DNA from: Candidatus Electrothrix aestuarii | Lineage (GTDB): Bacteria; Desulfobacterota; Desulfobulbia; Desulfobulbales; Desulfobulbaceae | DNA: 64,000 nucleotides | Direction of reading: 5' to 3' | Assembly: GCA_032595685.2 (NCBI GenBank) | Contig: CP159373.1 | Coordinates: 2,483,501 to 2,547,500 of the forward strand | Shown: one piece after another, positions 11,635-64,000 of the stretch | How the letters are laid out: every line of letters begins with the position of its first letter | How positions within the stretch are numbered: the first letter of the stretch is position 1 | Notes under the pieces: model-generated | The model's database searches: none | Seen by the model: the letters and a program-made list of their open reading frames with translations, nothing else | Told to the model about the DNA's origin: nothing | Program-made: the position numbers and the translations under genes

Positions 11635-12282
11635 TCAGGGGGCTGTTTTTTCAGGAATAGCTTGGAAAAAAGCCCCCTTTTTTACAGAGAGGATAACGGA
11701 TTGGCCCGCTCTGAGTTGCTCTTCTGCATGCTCAGGTTCCACCATAATATAATGGGTGTATTGGTGTTCATCTTGGACTTTTGCCTGAACCGGTTTTCCT
11801 TGTCTTGCTGTGCCCGCAAGAATGACCGCTGTCCTGCCGATCAGGCTGTCTTCCGAAACCGCCGAGGTTTCATCTTTGGGCATATAGGTATGAAGTAGTC
11901 CTCCAATCACCCGGGTAAAAGGTAGCGCGCAGAAACCTGCTGGAATGAGTGCTATGAATGGAGGGAGGAGATTACCTGTCATTTTTTGGATCAGCGCCTG
12001 AAGAAAGAGCCCGGAAAGTCCAAAGGCAGTCAGGGTAACAAGGAGGAGCATGAGGAGGGGAACTTTTCCAACACGGAGCCAGCTAAGGAACTGACTGAAT
12101 GCAGACGGTGAGCTATCCGGGAGTTCGAGGTCTACATCCACATCAGGGAACAGGGAGTCAATAAGCTCTGAAATCCCTGCCCCAAGACTGAGAGAGAGAA
12201 GCTCCAGAAAAACAAAGGAAATCATCACTGCCAAGGCTCCGGAAAAGGGCAGATTGGCAGGTTCCATCAGAAAGTTGAGCAT
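11635..12282 (-). CDS. YqiJ-like inner-membrane protein with C-terminal OB-fold
   Basis: This 215-residue protein has about three hydrophobic helices (around residues 12-35, 72-98 and 108-130) and then a soluble beta-rich domain beginning near EDSLIGRTAVIL. That layout and several positions match the YqiJ/OB-fold-containing family, which in many bacteria is paired with the flotillin-like YqiK. No flotillin gene is adjacent here. GGGAGAG precedes the ATG. It lies 12 bp downstream of the glycosylase gene on the same strand and is probably co-transcribed with it. Function is unproven; membrane-domain organisation or stress roles are assumed from the family. Confidence 0.72.
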   Translation of the reverse strand: MLNFLMEPANLPFSGALAVMISFVFLELLSLSLGAGISELIDSLFPDVDVDLELPDSSPSAFSQFLSWLRVGKVPLLMLLLVTLTAFGLSGLFLQALIQKMTGNLLPPFIALIPAGFCALPFTRVIGGLLHTYMPKDETSAVSEDSLIGRTAVILAGTARQGKPVQAKVQDEHQYTHYIMVEPEHAEEQLRAGQSVILSVKKGAFFQAIPEKTAP

Positions 12283-18276: not shown

Positions 18277-19542
18277 ATGACAACGACAACGCAACCCGCT
18301 TCAGTTTTTCAGAAGTCGATAGCTTTCTCCCGCGACTTCTGCATGTATACAATAAAAGGAGGAAAAGTCTATTACAGTTGGCTGCTTTTCCTTTCCTTTT
18401 TTGTCCTTGTAGGCCTTGTCACCACCTTTATACAGATGACGACCGGCCTTGTCGTCACCGGAGCCTCAGACCAAATCGTTTGGGAGCTGTTCGTCTCCAA
18501 CTTTATTCACTGCCCATCCATCGCCTCGGCGGCGGTATTGGTAGTAACGCCTGCTTACATCTATAAACGTAAAGATATGAAGCAGCTGGCCGTTATTGGC
18601 GAGGCCATAGCCATGGTCTTCGTGATTATCGGCCTCACCTTCATCATGTTCCACATGGGGAGGCCAGACCGGTCATGGCACGCGATTCCTGTGATAGGCA
18701 TCTTCAACTTTCCCAGTTCGGTGCTTACCTATGACATCATAGTGCTGAATGTTTACCTCGTTCTTAATGCGGTAGCGGTCTTCTATTATCTGTACAAACA
18801 CTATGTCGGTCAGCCGCTGAACACCACATTCTATACTCCGCTGATCTGGTTTGCCGTGGCATGGGGACCGTTCATTCATATCATTACCGCCTTCATCCTC
18901 AGCAGCAATGCGCAGATCGCCGTATGGCATTCTGCTCTCATGCCCTTTTCCTTTCTCGCTATGGCAGCTGCCGCTGGACCGGGCTTGGTCATTGTAACAC
19001 TTTTGGTTATCCGCAAATTCACTAAACTGGAAGTTAAAGACTCCGTTATTGACTTCTTTTCCCAAGTCATTATCTGGGGTGTAGGGGCCCTTATCCTGAT
19101 GTTTGCGGTAGAGTTTTTTACAGAACTCTATCCTGCCACACATCATGCTGCCCCTCTGGAGTATGCGATTAATGGACATAACGGTATGAACCCCTATGGT
19201 CCGTGGTTTTGGTCAATCATGACCATATTTGTGGTGCAGTTTTTCCTGCTGTGCATCAAAAAAGTACGGAAGAGCTATAACTTTATGCTTCCTCTGCTTT
19301 GTATTTCAGTCTTTCTGAGCGTTTTGTTTGAAAAACCCTCAGTTCTGATTTTTCCGGCCTTCAGCCCGACCCCCTTGGGTGAGTATGCCATATATCGTCC
19401 GACCTTGATTGAAATTTTCAACGTTCTGTTCGTCTGGGCGGGCGGTTTTATCCTGCTGACTATGGTCCTTAAGGGTGTGGTTGGCGTTTTGGTTGGTGAT
19501 GTGCAAGATTCCAGTGTAGCAGTGGAAGGAGGTGCAAAATGA
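18277..19542 (+). CDS. NrfD/PsrC-type integral membrane quinol-interacting subunit
   Basis: This 421-residue protein has about ten hydrophobic helices, beginning near residue 30 (YYSWLLFLSFFVLVGLVTTF), with conserved polar spots such as FHMGRPDRSW, typical of the NrfD/PsrC/DsrP superfamily. Such subunits bind menaquinone in the cytoplasmic membrane and hand electrons to, or take them from, the partner iron-sulfur protein. GAGGAG precedes the ATG. The stop overlaps the next start (ATGA at 19539-19542), so the tetraheme cytochrome is made in step with it. Confidence 0.9.
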   Translation: MTTTTQPASVFQKSIAFSRDFCMYTIKGGKVYYSWLLFLSFFVLVGLVTTFIQMTTGLVVTGASDQIVWELFVSNFIHCPSIASAAVLVVTPAYIYKRKDMKQLAVIGEAIAMVFVIIGLTFIMFHMGRPDRSWHAIPVIGIFNFPSSVLTYDIIVLNVYLVLNAVAVFYYLYKHYVGQPLNTTFYTPLIWFAVAWGPFIHIITAFILSSNAQIAVWHSALMPFSFLAMAAAAGPGLVIVTLLVIRKFTKLEVKDSVIDFFSQVIIWGVGALILMFAVEFFTELYPATHHAAPLEYAINGHNGMNPYGPWFWSIMTIFVVQFFLLCIKKVRKSYNFMLPLLCISVFLSVLFEKPSVLIFPAFSPTPLGEYAIYRPTLIEIFNVLFVWAGGFILLTMVLKGVVGVLVGDVQDSSVAVEGGAK

Positions 19543-20570
19543 TTTCAGCGAGAAAATACATGAGAGCAGCGGTTCTCGTCGGCCTTTTCTTCGTAGCGAT
19601 CAGCGGCCTGGTCCTTCATAACATGCCTGGAGAGGCTGTGGCGCAAGAAGATGCGGCACAACATGAGGAGTCTGGCGCAGCAGTACAAGAAGCTCCAGCT
19701 GAGGCTACACAAGAAGAGGCAGCAGTAGAGCAAGAAGCTCCGGCTGAGGTTGCGCAAGAAGAGCCAGCAGTAGAGCAAGAAGCTCCGGCTGATACTGCAC
19801 AAGAAGAGCCAGCAGTAGAGCAAGAAGCTCCAGCGGATGCGGCACCAGCCACCTCTGCTGCGGGAGTTGAGTGCTATGAAAGTAGAAAAGATGCCACCAA
19901 GATTTTGCAGGTGCAAAATGCAAACCCCAAATACGGTTATCCCAATGTGAAGTGTTCACCCACCACAGGGGCCGTTCTTTGGTACGGCGATCCCTACACC
20001 GGGACTGAGCCTATTGGGGAAATGCCGAAATACGGCGATAAGACTGATGGAGACTTTGCTCAGGCTGTGATCAGACCTCGTACGGGGCACCTGAAAACAA
20101 TCCAGCAGACAAACATGCAGTGCAGTGGCTGTCATCAGGCTCCTCCTCAGCAGACAAATCCTCGTCAATTGATGATGCACCAGGATATCGTGAGCGACGC
20201 GAGCAAGTTACAGCATGGTCGCGGTGCTATCTGGTGTCTTGACTGCCATAATGCTGAAAATCGTGACACCCTTATTGACCAACAAGGCAATGAGGTGAGC
20301 TTCAATCAGTCCCAGAAGGTCTGCGGTAGTTGTCACGGTGATCTCTACAGCGACTGGCGCATGGGCCTCCACGGCAAACGCACCGGTGAATGGAAAGTCG
20401 GTGGGAAGAAACGCTGGTGGACCTGTACAGAATGCCATAACCCGCATACTGTTCAAGAGCATCGTTTTGATCCGGTTAAACCCGAGCCACCACCTGCTCT
20501 GCCTCGTGGTATGAGCAAAGATGACCTCAAGGGTGCTGAGGGACACGGTGGTCACGGCGGTGGTCATTGA
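19539..20570 (+). CDS. Tetraheme c-type cytochrome with a Glu/Ala/Pro repeat linker
   Basis: This 343-residue protein has an N-terminal signal or anchor (AAVLVGLFFVAISGLVL), a low-complexity acidic linker of three and a bit 15-residue repeats (EAPAEVAQEEPAVEQ type), and a C-terminal domain with four CXXCH motifs: CSGCH, CLDCH, CGSCH and CTECH. The linker should hold the heme domain away from the membrane. The C-terminus is Gly/His-rich (GHGGHGGGH), a possible metal-binding tail. It is the last gene of the small protein-FeS-NrfD-cytochrome operon and is probably the periplasmic electron acceptor or donor of that complex. Confidence 0.87.
   Translation: MISARKYMRAAVLVGLFFVAISGLVLHNMPGEAVAQEDAAQHEESGAAVQEAPAEATQEEAAVEQEAPAEVAQEEPAVEQEAPADTAQEEPAVEQEAPADAAPATSAAGVECYESRKDATKILQVQNANPKYGYPNVKCSPTTGAVLWYGDPYTGTEPIGEMPKYGDKTDGDFAQAVIRPRTGHLKTIQQTNMQCSGCHQAPPQQTNPRQLMMHQDIVSDASKLQHGRGAIWCLDCHNAENRDTLIDQQGNEVSFNQSQKVCGSCHGDLYSDWRMGLHGKRTGEWKVGGKKRWWTCTECHNPHTVQEHRFDPVKPEPPPALPRGMSKDDLKGAEGHGGHGGGH
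19689..19838 (+). repeat. 45-bp tandem repeat inside the tetraheme cytochrome gene
   Basis: Units start at 19689, 19734 and 19779, with a partial fourth at 19824. Each encodes 15 residues of the Glu/Ala/Pro linker. The units are very similar at the DNA level, so copy number may vary between strains by slippage. Confidence 0.9.
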
Positions 20571-22962: not shown

Positions 22963-23567
22963 TTTGTTCCCATCTTTTGTGTTTGTATTGAGTTGTTCAT
23001 GCTGTTTTGAGTCAGCAGCTTGGATCTGGTATGAAAGGTGTAAATTTAATCAGTTATGCTCAATGAGTAAATAGGAAAGAACAGCTCGGGTAATCTCATA
23101 TCTTCTTGCATTCATTTCGCCTTTATTTCTATGTAGCTGTCGAGAAAAAGCTTGCTGATGATTTTACAGTCTGATGGGCAAAAACGATGGCCTGCCGGGG
23201 TAACGTCTACCCCGGTTTCCTTGGAAAAACATCGCTAATCCCCCTGACAATTTATCGATATAATCCGATCCAATCATCAAGTATCAAACGGACTGTTTAT
23301 CGAGTATCAAGTGAATCATTCATCGAGCGTAGAGTGGATCACTTATCGCCCGTAGAGTAATGTACTCTACGCCCGTAATCAGAACCAGTCATCGGGTATC
23401 AAATAGATTTTTTATCGAGTATCAAACGAACCCTTCAGCGGGCGTAATTTTATCAAATGAACGGCAGCGCTTTATACCGGGATGCGCCTGGGCTGGCTCT
23501 GCGCGATAATCGTTCAGTAATCTTGAGAAAGCTCTTAGCAGGACATGCTGCGGGAGAAACGGTCTGT
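22963..23567. other. Intergenic region with 23-bp repeat array
   Basis: About 600 bp between the Kef and RACo-like genes. It contains the 23-bp array (23251-23457) and a perfect 8-bp stem CCGGGGTA / TACCCCGG at 23195-23215 with a 5-nt loop and no strong T-run. I see no gene. Confidence 0.6.
23251..23457. repeat. Degenerate 23-bp tandem repeat array A (9 units)
   Basis: Units begin at about 23252, 23274, 23297, 23320, 23343, 23366, 23389, 23412 and 23435, so the period is 23 bp with one 22-bp step. The typical unit starts TTATCGAGTATCAAACGGAT; an alternative form has CGTAGAGT in the middle. Units are degenerate but the phase is kept. The pair at 23351-23371 makes a 9-bp palindrome with a 3-nt loop. 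There are no unique spacers, so it is not CRISPR. Confidence 0.85.
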
Positions 23568-36936: not shown

Positions 36937-37117
36937 TTCTTCTCCTTCAAGTAAATACGCTCTGATGGTACAATATCTCCTCCCCCTCAACAGGAGGGAG
37001 AAGGCAACAGGCATCATGGAGATACGCTCTCGGAGAGGTCCCTGCCTCGGTCGCACCACACCGGGGCTCATAAGGTACAGGTATTTCGAGGTGTAGAATA
37101 CCTGTATTTTGCCTTCC

Positions 37118-37277
37118 AAAAGGCGTAGGGTTTGTCTTCCAAAAGGCGTAGGCGTTTCCTATCAAAAGCCCTGGCTTCTACATATCAAAAACCCTCCCTT
37201 CTATATATCAAAAGGGAGGGTTTTACATCTCAAAAGGGAGACTTTTTGATATATAAAAGGGTAGGCTTTTGATTCGC
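37118..37277. repeat. Degenerate 23-bp tandem repeat array B (7 units)
   Basis: The core AAAAG (or AAAA) recurs at 37118, 37141, 37164, 37187, 37210, 37232 and 37255, steps of 23 bp with one of 22. Units look like ATCAAAAGGGAGGGTTTTAC, and some units are the inverted form. It fills most of the gap between cobU and the AIM24 genes. Confidence 0.82.
37188..37224. terminator. Bidirectional terminator-like hairpin within array B
   Basis: AAAACCCTCCCTT (37188-37200) and AAGGGAGGGTTTT (37212-37224) are perfect 13-bp reverse complements around an 11-nt loop. On the minus strand it would end the M48-AIM24 transcript. Confidence 0.7.
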
Positions 37278-37447
37278 AAGAAATTTGCCTTTATCAAGGT
37301 AGGTATTTATCCTTTGTATAAAGAATAATCTTTTCTTATCAGACGGTCCCCCCATGCCTGTTGCGTATGGAGAGCCGTTGTTTTGGATTAATTCGGGACT
37401 GTCCCTGGGATGCCTCATCGGCTCGGGCCAACCCTGTCGTCTGCCCA

Positions 37448-60766: not shown

Positions 60767-63241
60767 GTGTATCCAGTAAACTCCGCTCATATTACCGAAA
60801 AAATCCGAGGCATAGTCCAGCGCATCACCTACCATAACCAGGATAACGGCTGGTCGGTGCTCCGAGTTTCGCCCTTTGATGCCCAGGGCGAGACCGTCAC
60901 GGTGACCGTCCATCAGATGCAGGTCTTTGCCGGAGCCACAATGGAGTTTTCCGGTTCCTGGACCGTACATCCCAAGTTCGGTCGCCAATTCAAGGCCAAC
61001 GAGGCCACAGAGTTGAAACCGGCCTCTGCCGGGGCCTTGGAAAAATACCTTGGTTCGGGCCTGATCAAAGGGGTCGGTCCCAAGACGGCGCAGAAGATTG
61101 TCCGCCATTTCGGCAAGGAGACCCTGGAGGTCTTTGAGGAACGGATCGAACGCCTCATTGAGGTGCCGGGCATTGCCGAGAAAAAGCTCACCTCCATCAG
61201 CGCGGCCTGGCAAGAGCATCGGGCCGTTCGGGACGTGATGCTCTTTCTCCAATCCCACGGCATCTCCACCCTCTTTGCCGTGCGTATCTACAAACAGTAT
61301 GGCGATAACTCCATCGTCTTGGTCTCGGAAAATCCTTACCGTCTGGCAGCGGACTTCTACGGGATCGGCTTCTTCTCTGCTGACAAGGTGGCCCTGTCCA
61401 TTGGCTTTGCCCCGGATTCACCTCTGCGCATCACAGCGGCCATCCGCCATTCCCTGTCCGCCAGCCGGGAACAGGGACATTGCTACCTCACTCAGGAGCA
61501 GATCGCCAAGCAGGTCAATAAGCTGTTGGAGATGAACCTGACTGATCAGATCGCCCTGTTTCTCCACGAGATGGAGCAGGATGATGCCTTGCGGGTACGG
61601 CTGCTGGTTACCCGTACCGATTCTGACGCGACGCAGGAGCCGGAGCGTTGCTATTACTCCAAGACCCTGTATTATGATGAAGACTATGTGGCGAGCCGTC
61701 TACGTAAACTGACCCGGTCCTTGGAACATGACCCGGCCCGGATCGCCTCCTGGCTGGCACGCTACGCAGAACAGACTGGGGTGCTACTCTCCGAGGAACA
61801 GGCAGTAGCGGTTCGCTCTATTGCGGGCTGCCAATGCGCCATCCTTACCGGCGGGCCGGGCTGCGGCAAGACCACCACCACCAAGGTTCTGGTGGCCCTG
61901 CTTCGGGCTATGGGCCGGTCGGTTTTGCTGGCGGCACCCACTGGTCGGGCTGCCCAACGCATGGGCGAAGTCATTGGTATGGAGGCCAAGACTATCCATC
62001 GTCTCTTGGAATTTCAGGGCACTGGCTTTAAGCGCAACGAAGAAAATCCCCTCCAGACGGATGTGCTGATCCTGGATGAGTGCTCTATGCTGGATATCAG
62101 CCTGAGCGCCTCTCTGCTCCGGGCGGTTTCCGACGAGACCGCGATCCTCTTTATTGGCGATGCGGATCAGCTACCCTCGGTCGGAGCAGGGAATGTCCTG
62201 CGGGATATGATCGCTTCCACGGTTATCCCCACCCATACCCTGCAAACCATCTTCCGTCAGGCCGAGCAATCGCAGATCATTACCTTTGCCCACCAGATTA
62301 ACCGGGGGGAGGCACCGAAGATTGATTCGCCGTTTAAGAAGCCGGAATTGTGGAACGGGGCAGATTGTTTTTTCATTGATTCGGACGAAGCCACCAAGGC
62401 CCAGTTGAGCTTTATTGCCCGAACCAAACAGCATCTCCAGACCGTTGAAGAACGGGAAAAAGTCAGTGCGGATCCCTTTGCTTTTGACGAGGAATCCCTG
62501 GCCACTTCCTACCAGGGCTTTGAGCTGCCTGAGCAGTTCCAGCATGTGAACTTGCAGGCCCTGTCAACAGCAGAAGGCCCGGCCGGAGAACTGGCTGTGG
62601 TGGCGAAAAAGGTTCATCCCTGGTCCTCCCTCTACTACGGCATGACGGCGGTGGATGTGGTACAGCGGCTCTACACAGAGTGGATTCCTAAATACTGCGG
62701 CCTGAATTGCGAGATTCAGGTCTTATCCCCCATGATTCGGGGCAGCCTGGGCACGGCCTCGCTCAATAAAATCCTTCAACAGGCGGTCAATCCGGGCCAG
62801 CAGGGCAAGGCTGAGATCATGGTCGGGGAGAAGATCTTTCGGGTCGGGGATCGGGTGATCCACCGACGGAACAACTATGATCTTGGTGTGTTCAACGGGG
62901 ATATCGGCAGGATTACGGCGGTGAATAATGAGGCGTTGACGTTGCAGGTCTGCTTTTTTCCGGATCAGCGGGAGGTGGAATACCAGCGCGAGCAGATCAC
63001 CGAGCTGGAACTGGCCTATGCCATCACCATTCATAAATCCCAGGGGTCGGAGTTCGAGGTCGTGATCCTGCCGGTCCTGACCCAACATTTTCGGATGCTC
63101 TTTCGTAATTTGGTCTACACCGGGCTGACCAGAGCGCGGAAACTGGCTGTCTTTGTCGGCACCCGCAAGGCCCTGGCTATGGCAGTGCATAATCAGGATA
63201 CGGGGTTGCGGCAGACAGCTCTGCAGGAGTTGCTGAGGTAA
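60767..63241 (+). CDS. recD2: ATP-dependent RecD2-type DNA helicase
   Basis: 824 residues. The N-terminal OB-like and helix-hairpin regions include IRGIVQRITYHNQDNGWSVL and LIKGVGPKTAQKIV. The helicase core has Walker A TGGPGCGKTTTTKV, Walker B LILDECSMLDI, DADQLPSVGAGNVL, RVIHRRNNYDLGVFNGDIGR and the C-terminal ITIHKSQGSEFEVVILPVLT. RecD2 is a 5'-3' superfamily 1B helicase acting in DNA repair without RecBC. The start is GTG 60767, the first possible codon after an in-frame stop. A non-helicase insertion (about residues 545-620) separates the motor motifs. Confidence 0.93.
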   Translation: MYPVNSAHITEKIRGIVQRITYHNQDNGWSVLRVSPFDAQGETVTVTVHQMQVFAGATMEFSGSWTVHPKFGRQFKANEATELKPASAGALEKYLGSGLIKGVGPKTAQKIVRHFGKETLEVFEERIERLIEVPGIAEKKLTSISAAWQEHRAVRDVMLFLQSHGISTLFAVRIYKQYGDNSIVLVSENPYRLAADFYGIGFFSADKVALSIGFAPDSPLRITAAIRHSLSASREQGHCYLTQEQIAKQVNKLLEMNLTDQIALFLHEMEQDDALRVRLLVTRTDSDATQEPERCYYSKTLYYDEDYVASRLRKLTRSLEHDPARIASWLARYAEQTGVLLSEEQAVAVRSIAGCQCAILTGGPGCGKTTTTKVLVALLRAMGRSVLLAAPTGRAAQRMGEVIGMEAKTIHRLLEFQGTGFKRNEENPLQTDVLILDECSMLDISLSASLLRAVSDETAILFIGDADQLPSVGAGNVLRDMIASTVIPTHTLQTIFRQAEQSQIITFAHQINRGEAPKIDSPFKKPELWNGADCFFIDSDEATKAQLSFIARTKQHLQTVEEREKVSADPFAFDEESLATSYQGFELPEQFQHVNLQALSTAEGPAGELAVVAKKVHPWSSLYYGMTAVDVVQRLYTEWIPKYCGLNCEIQVLSPMIRGSLGTASLNKILQQAVNPGQQGKAEIMVGEKIFRVGDRVIHRRNNYDLGVFNGDIGRITAVNNEALTLQVCFFPDQREVEYQREQITELELAYAITIHKSQGSEFEVVILPVLTQHFRMLFRNLVYTGLTRARKLAVFVGTRKALAMAVHNQDTGLRQTALQELLR

Positions 63242-63709
63242 GAGACAGGGCAAGAGTCTCTGTAATATTGCGGATAATGTCCTTGCAGAACCTCCCCTGC
63301 TGTCGCCTCCCCTTTTCTTTCTTCCCTGATAACCTATGCAGCCATCTTCGACAGGCTAGTCAAGTCTTGCCCCACCAACCAACCCCAGGAGCATCGGCGA
63401 TGGTCCCGACGACCTTCGTACGATACTCCCTCCGACCTTCGGCGATGGTCTTGAAGACCCTCGGCGAACCTCCCCGAGACCCTTCGCCCATGTTTCTCCG
63501 CTGACCACAAACGAAGCAGTATTATCCGATCCAACGATCGGGCCGAACCGGATCACATGATCGGGCCTAGTCCGAACGCATGATCGAGTTTCTCTTGCCA
63601 CAGGTCTAGAAAGAGTCTGTTCTCCGCAAAGCGGGACGAGAAGGTTATGGATATGCTGAAAAGGAGGTGTTGCGAGGGGAGGGGGGGCTTTAACTTTCTT
63701 CAGGAATAC
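63242..63709. other. Intergenic region with 23-bp repeat array
   Basis: Between recD2 and the right-edge gene. It contains array C (63394-63598). A plus-strand frame at 63647-63916 is antisense to the membrane protein and is probably not a gene. Confidence 0.5.
63394..63598. repeat. Degenerate 22-23-bp tandem repeat array C (9 units)
   Basis: Units begin at 63394, 63416, 63439, 63461, 63484, 63507, 63530, 63553 and 63576. Early units resemble TCGGCGATGGTCCCGACGAC; late ones resemble TGATCGGGCCTAGTCCGA. The late units share ATCG-G and CCGGATCA with array A. Confidence 0.82.
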
Positions 63710-64000
63710 TCAAAACAAATCTGCCGAAAACAGACTCACCTCATCACCCTGCAAAAGATTAAAGCAGAGTTGCAAACCCCATACACCGACCAGCAGTGCA
63801 TAGGAGAAAAGATTGACTCTGTACATCAGACGCTTCGGGTTGACCTTTCTCTCATGAGCTTGTTTCCGAATAAAAGGATATTCAAACCATACGGTGACAA
63901 AATAGGCAGGCAATAAACCGACGATTCCACCGAATGGAATCAACCAAAATATCTTTCCTTCGTACGCTGGAAAAGGCAGAATAACCGATGCTAGTATAAC
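63710..64000 (-). CDS. Partial membrane protein, 5' end outside window
   Basis: The minus-strand frame is open from the window edge and ends at 63710. It shows two strongly hydrophobic segments (WLIPFGGIVGLLPAYFVTVW; LFSYALLVGVWGLQLCFNLL) separated by a basic loop (FIRKQAHERKVNPKRLMY). No family is recognised; probably an integral inner-membrane protein. Confidence 0.65.
   Translation of the reverse strand, partial: VILASVILPFPAYEGKIFWLIPFGGIVGLLPAYFVTVWFEYPFIRKQAHERKVNPKRLMYRVNLFSYALLVGVWGLQLCFNLLQGDEVSLFSADLF

Follow-up and report, generated by a model that had tools for sequence, protein, structure and literature searches.

Intergenic 22/23-bp tandem arrays of cable bacteria as probable upstream control regions of HU-HIG/DUF4469 genes

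Three arrays of short repeats with a common period lie within 64 kb of the genome of Candidatus Electrothrix aestuarii (this stretch of 64,000 nucleotides, at its full length, is referred to as the window), and they raise the question of what kind of element they represent. Array C, with which the analysis began, is situated between the 3' ends of recD2, whose product is 89% identical to the RecD2 of Ca. Electrothrix gigas, and of a convergent gene. Its periodicity of 22-23 bp is real: over 63380-63610 the identity at lags 22 and 23 is 0.34 and 0.41, which none of 500 dinucleotide shuffles matched, and the lag-22/23 identities of the early part (63389-63490) and the late part (63520-63600) were likewise reached by 0/500 shuffles each. 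When any lag was allowed, the maximum of the short late part was equalled in 26/500 shuffles, those of the whole array and of the early part in 0/500. The preliminary description of the window counted a single array of nine units; here the period stands but the count does not, because segmentation gives two blocks of four and three units. The early block (63396-63485, strand not assigned, automatic segmentation) has steps of 23, 22 and 22 bp and the motif class CCTTCG-GCGATG..CTCC, the late block (63522-63590, forward strand) consists of 23-bp units with steps of 23 and 23 bp and the motif class CCGATC..GATCGGG. The two motifs differ, a non-periodic gap of about 36 bp separates the blocks, and seven units in all are clear. 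The other two arrays, A (23274-23403) and B (37107-37361, including a leader), both on the forward strand, proved equally real, share the period of C, and like C lie outside the surrounding long ORFs. A special likeness between A and the late units of C, which had been proposed earlier, comes down to short words, and blastn gave no match between the two at E<=0.01. A set of 45-bp repeats at 19666-19845, 88% alike and inside the coding frame 19539-20570, is unrelated to the 23-bp arrays.

Arrays of this period are not restricted to the window. A survey of the window and 40 evenly spaced 20-kb stretches (864 kb, or 17% of the 5.11-Mb single-contig genome) gave 14 lag-22/23 matches at a threshold of 0.587 and 12 at 0.63, against 0-3 and 0-2 matches, respectively, for each of nine control lag pairs, which confirms the earlier suggestion of a dispersed class with a single period. 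The 14 matches amount to 11 arrays: C was counted twice, and two candidates, L100 and L016 at 18985, were left out as resembling low complexity or chance, the latter being nonetheless among the 12 matches at the stricter threshold. Among the named records L031-L068 the detector threshold was reached in three, namely L031 and L065, each with an array seen by eye, and L060 (0.59, near noise).

Among the neighbours of the arrays is a protein that gives weak Pfam matches with both HU-HIG and DUF4469. A search of the same genome with this protein yielded 25 matching pieces, and the 420 bp 5' of 17 of them showed in most cases the same succession of a 23-bp array, a TTGACA-like promoter and the gene. 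For a larger sample, 118 gene starts were taken from 12 Electrothrix and Electronema genomes, a subset of the matches from which start-less fragments are mostly excluded; one was dropped for short upstream DNA, which left 117 with at least 300 bp upstream. An array was detected upstream of 99/117 (104/117 at a looser threshold of 0.55) as compared to 14 among 707 control ORFs, each 150 aa or longer (Fisher p about 1e-92, with related loci counted as independent); the controls come from the window's genome only, and orthologs among the 117 are not independent of each other. The 14 control positives include an HU-HIG gene itself (L096) and four ORFs beside HU-HIG relics (B, C, L094 and L103). 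Seven control lag pairs gave 0 matches each, once 1, in the same 117 upstream regions. Array frequency varies among genomes, from 14/14 in G001, 11/11 in G034 and 12/15 in the window's genome to 5/8 in G002 and 0/1 in G006. Of the 18 genes below the threshold, L114, L133, L148, L153 and L262 have an array that can be seen by eye; other HU-HIG genes, e.g. L119, L147, L144 and L277, are without one even by eye, so the array is not obligatory. That the arrays are regulatory parts of HU-HIG loci is highly probable. In the survey of the window's genome, an intact HU-HIG gene stands behind one of the 11 arrays (L096) and gene remnants were found at four (L094, L103, B and C), while tblastn at E<=0.01 revealed no HU-HIG gene at A, the two arrays of L016, L020, L091 and L095.

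The layout of the gene-linked loci is uniform. A promoter of the form TTGAC-N15-19-TANNNT is present in 102/117 HU-HIG upstream regions vs 25/707 controls, and where TTGAC and a detected array occur together (92 loci) the TTGAC lies 87 bp before the ATG (5-95%: 81-93), while the array upstream stops short of it by a median of 37.5 bp (range -15 to 221). The number of units in gene-linked arrays is 3-14, with a median of 6. Of their 477 steps, 448 measure exactly 23 bp. The unit is frequently symmetrical: of 111 array consensuses, 48 reach p<=0.05 for palindromy where 5.6 are expected, and for the remaining 63 palindromy is not significant. Palindromic consensuses make up 46/99 of the gene-linked arrays and 2/12 of the orphan arrays, the latter figure agreeing with decay, although the number of units is also low in several of the orphan arrays.

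Symmetry of this kind could also belong to a structured nucleic acid, the unit folding, as RNA or single-stranded DNA, into a hairpin whose structure, and not its sequence, does the work. The retention of palindromy in many arrays, while the sequence varies by locus, would suit such an explanation, but the pattern of change does not. In gene-linked arrays with at least 6/8 positions paired, 657 cells are changed on one side and 80 on both, and pairing is regained in 30 of these 80 two-sided changes, close to the 1/3 that chance predicts. Mostly one-sided changes with chance-level compensation speak against the units working as hairpins and suggest that the half-sites are each held to the consensus, as a dimeric protein needs. 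Furthermore, 87 of the 92 arrays lie wholly upstream of the -35 element, without overlap of the TTGAC, and therefore are not transcribed from that promoter; around C (62900-64000) there is no Rfam match at E<=1. A test for free chains of palindromes gave no peak at a spacing of 22-23 bp (2-3 loci at the lowest threshold), which is further evidence against the units as strong hairpins; as this test demands near-perfect 7-bp arms, period-based detection was used instead. Altogether we consider a hairpin function very improbable. The same test showed a small peak at 28 bp, strong-palindrome chains at this spacing being slightly commoner than at others (8 loci in the window, L011-L030 and L087-L106).

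Judged from the sequences, each locus carries its own 23-bp motif, which is common to close orthologs and mostly unrelated elsewhere. Motif similarity tracks protein similarity (Mantel rho 0.26, reached in 0/2000 permutations, 44 loci): mean motif identity is 18.3/23 for protein identities from 0.8 upwards and 10.5-11.7, near chance, below 0.6. The correspondence is not strict, given that the proteins of L199 and L207 are 83% identical and their motifs unrelated. In L117, L163 and L202, with proteins 87-94% identical and nearly the same motif, the arrays have 7, 6 and 7 units, which shows that units are gained and lost. When protein pairs with the same motif (17) were compared with those whose motif had switched (14), the pairs not being independent, changes were slightly over-represented in the HU region, and the comparison brought out no clear specificity region. 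With respect to the earlier expectation of a shared period and location, the period, the frequent symmetry and the position are indeed common to the arrays; a common sequence is absent.

These motif data bear on another possible origin, i.e. that the arrays are a free-standing dispersed repeat of the REP/BIME or MITE kind, spread by a transposase and located near HU-HIG genes by chance. REP/BIME elements with RAYT transposases are short intergenic palindromes that occur in clusters (excerpts of PMC3733652), and to this extent the 23-bp arrays resemble them; the arrays differ in having no common sequence, a fixed tandem period of 23 bp and a fixed place before the promoter of one gene family. 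The existence of orphan arrays, some of them very regular, might be taken as a sign of mobility, as might a piece of a class-C array within an early-ending vapC-like (PIN) frame beside a vapB-like gene (L002, about 2090-2155, by eye). The genome also has nine Y1 transposase (Y1_Tnp) genes, two of which have arrays within 1.5 kb: L079, where a 22/23-bp array at 2139-2366 lies about 300 bp from the transposase gene, and, weakly, L086. Against this, arrays of distant loci share sequence no better than chance, strict placement before HU-HIG promoters is unexpected for a mobile repeat, and HU-HIG remnants accompany B, C, L094 and L103. A chance association of a free repeat is thus quite unlikely, and no sign was found of spread by a recombinase, for which the preliminary description proposed a search near the arrays.

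With a probability of roughly two in three we prefer the reading in which the 22/23-bp arrays serve as control regions in front of the genes for HU-HIG/DUF4469 proteins, a family of DNA-binding proteins that has expanded in cable bacteria. The HU-like product of a gene would dimerise and bind a single 23-bp unit of the array before that gene, other dimers would occupy the neighbouring units side by side, and occupancy of the array would control the promoter of the protein's own gene from upstream; sites that seldom overlap the -35 element lean towards activation or looping. Binding of an HU-HIG protein to its own array, for which position and symmetry speak, is modestly probable. Units would be copied and homogenised within an array, with the consequence that motifs change together, and duplication of loci followed by loss of the gene would give rise to orphan arrays. 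More tentatively, and with the odds somewhat against it, one may envisage a multi-member recognition system in which a genome has as many as some 30 HU-HIG paralogs, each reading a private, fast-changing 23-bp array. Protein and array would in that case switch specificity jointly and make up a set of orthogonal HU-based switches, which might possibly serve in the discrimination of own from foreign DNA or in cell states along the filament.

In this light array C is very probably a relic of an HU-HIG locus. Its late block (63526-63586) is 77-85% identical in blastn to arrays upstream of the HU-HIG genes L139, L140 and L145, and it is followed at 63613-63659 on the forward strand by a putative HU-HIG coding relic, corresponding to about codons 51-66, which matches genes of the same ortholog group (83% over 46 bp in L140 and L145, 96% over 28 bp in L139; E 9e-6 to 3e-6) in preserved order and strand. 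The distance between array match and coding match is 323 bp in L139 and 46 bp in the window, from which it follows that the promoter and the 5' end of the gene are missing at C. The late block and the coding relic also occur in the sister genome G007 (L070), where the right-hand setting is alike and the left side is masked. In the Electrothrix records L031, L034 and L067 no such array was seen by eye in the 520 bp after recD2; L031 has an array about 1.7 kb downstream. The early block of C matched no gene-linked array in blastn and resembles the orphan arrays L002 (76% over 127 bp, including the left flank) and L072 (82% over 68 bp).

Arrays A and B likewise point to HU-HIG loci. Array A, with 23-bp units, is 83% identical over 130 bp to an array in L094/L124 that precedes a 5'-truncated HU-HIG gene. 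The region of array B aligns over about 255 bp, at 82-84% identity, with the array and leader that precede the HU-HIG genes L128 and L130 and, on this alignment, is an array and leader of their type, cut just past the ATG at 37354, with the gene lost after few codons. The earlier idea of an actively forming class hence needs qualification: unit number does vary among orthologs, but the arrays are tied to HU-HIG/DUF4469 loci and the three of the window are remnants.

Not all orphan arrays have the appearance of decay. In blastn at E<=0.01, a gene-linked counterpart was found for 13 of 15 orphan queries; some orphan arrays are highly regular, unlike decayed ones, e.g. L103 (1.0) and L016 (0.98). 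The very regular eight-unit array of L103 (11130-11610) stands ahead of an HU-HIG gene with a large internal deletion, of which roughly residues 1-15 (by eye) and, according to tblastn, residues 339-358 are left close together, and an inverted near copy of this array is found in L016 at about 11640-11775 (92% over 135 bp). It is conceivable, therefore, that orphan arrays including C are live distal operators, through which HU-HIG proteins control a regulon or structure the chromosome. The composite arrays L020:14835-15111 and L006:1475-1710, which match HU-HIG arrays from other species (L270 and L280), lie 134 and 72 bp 5' of the listed starts of leucine-rich-repeat (LRR) genes; some orphan arrays may accordingly be working sites instead of relics, and the LRR genes behind them are possible regulon members. 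Composite arrays moreover recur (C, L002, L072 and L020, by eye and blastn). On the other hand, C sits between convergent gene ends with its promoter lost, and neither of its blocks, at 0.61 and 0.67, scores above the weakest gene-linked array detected in the window's genome (0.67). This last argument is valid for C and not for the class, since the other orphan arrays score no lower than gene-linked ones. As an account of the orphan arrays including C, live distal operators appear unlikely, and a relic of an HU-HIG locus remains our preferred reading of C.

Among 29 of the proteins, E<=0.01 was reached by HU-DNA_bdg in 12, HU-HIG in 11 and DUF4469 in 15; in another scan two proteins score below the Pfam cut-offs. 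Together with a profile match to PDB 4fmr (E 7e-5), these domains speak for a DNA-binding fold. The proteins are alike to the HU-HIG, HU-DNA_bdg and DUF4469 families (PF18291, PF14848, PF14734; PDB 4fmr) in an HU-like N-terminus with an Ig-like domain. With one query, the family was present in 7/8 Electrothrix and 5/5 Electronema genomes, i.e. 12/13 cable-bacterium genomes, with 32 matches in G016, and in 0/46 other genomes among 59 drawn from the taxonomic family. The assignment to Electronema follows from G034, which over 3,000 bp is identical to a record of Ca. Electronema. A profile search of the phylum found it in the window's genome alone of 395 (at most five candidates scored per genome, other cable bacteria not being among those listed); no match was obtained in the genomes reached via L056, L052 and L058, and no relative among viral contigs. 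A search with PF18291 also picks up ordinary HU/IHF, that of E. coli included, and was not used as evidence. Of six loci with DUF4469 genes in another phylum (that of L056, labelled Bacteroidia), none has an array, and the C-terminus of the cable-bacterium proteins extends about 120 residues beyond that of the proteins encoded there. Burroughs et al. reportedly noted in 2017 a lineage-specific expansion of an HU-HIG-type family in Bacteroidetes, to which the expansion in cable bacteria is similar.

In autoregulated operator and iteron arrays of plasmid replication and partition, tandem sites lie next to the gene of their DNA-binding protein. The 23-bp arrays are similar in being tandem sites of about two helical turns beside the gene of a presumed DNA-binding protein, and dissimilar in the many paralogs per genome, the mostly unrelated motifs and the HU-like protein. 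HU-like proteins are generally regarded as DNA binders of low sequence preference; a family in which every member lies behind a tandem dyad array of its own suggests that proteins of the HU fold can have individual sequence specificities. The arrays provide a concrete candidate DNA target for the HU-HIG/DUF4469 family, on whose function the searches made found almost no literature, and the link with this family accounts for one kind of repeat found between the genes of cable bacteria.

The earlier impression that the class is new to the literature still holds, as no description of 23-bp palindromic arrays was found in the literature searched on HU-HIG, DUF4469 and cable-bacterium repeats. As far as excerpts of papers on cable bacteria go, PMC10580974 refers to protein repeats only, PMC10926707 to IS elements as repeats and PMC10030654 to unspecified genomic repeats and IS elements, and PMC13047784 contains none of the terms looked for. 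PMC12724145, where it deals with genes changed in a Treponema regulator mutant, names TDE_2259, a protein with PF14848 and PF14734, as well as the leucine-rich-repeat gene lrrA (TDE_2258), adjacent judging by its number; this is a lead only.

Being periodic and partly palindromic, the arrays recall CRISPR repeats, from which they differ in that the whole 23-bp unit repeats, with no unique spacers of nearly constant length. A CRISPR array occurs in a Desulfobulbaceae MAG that is an outlier in the distribution of the family (L053:811-3066): an HU-HIG gene at 1697-2728, whose structure model (mean pLDDT 33.6) was not relied on, lies inside it as if placed at one spacer position, with 12 CRISPR repeats before the gene and at least five after. 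Two 23-bp palindromic units can be seen by eye upstream of this gene (detector 0.57, below the threshold).
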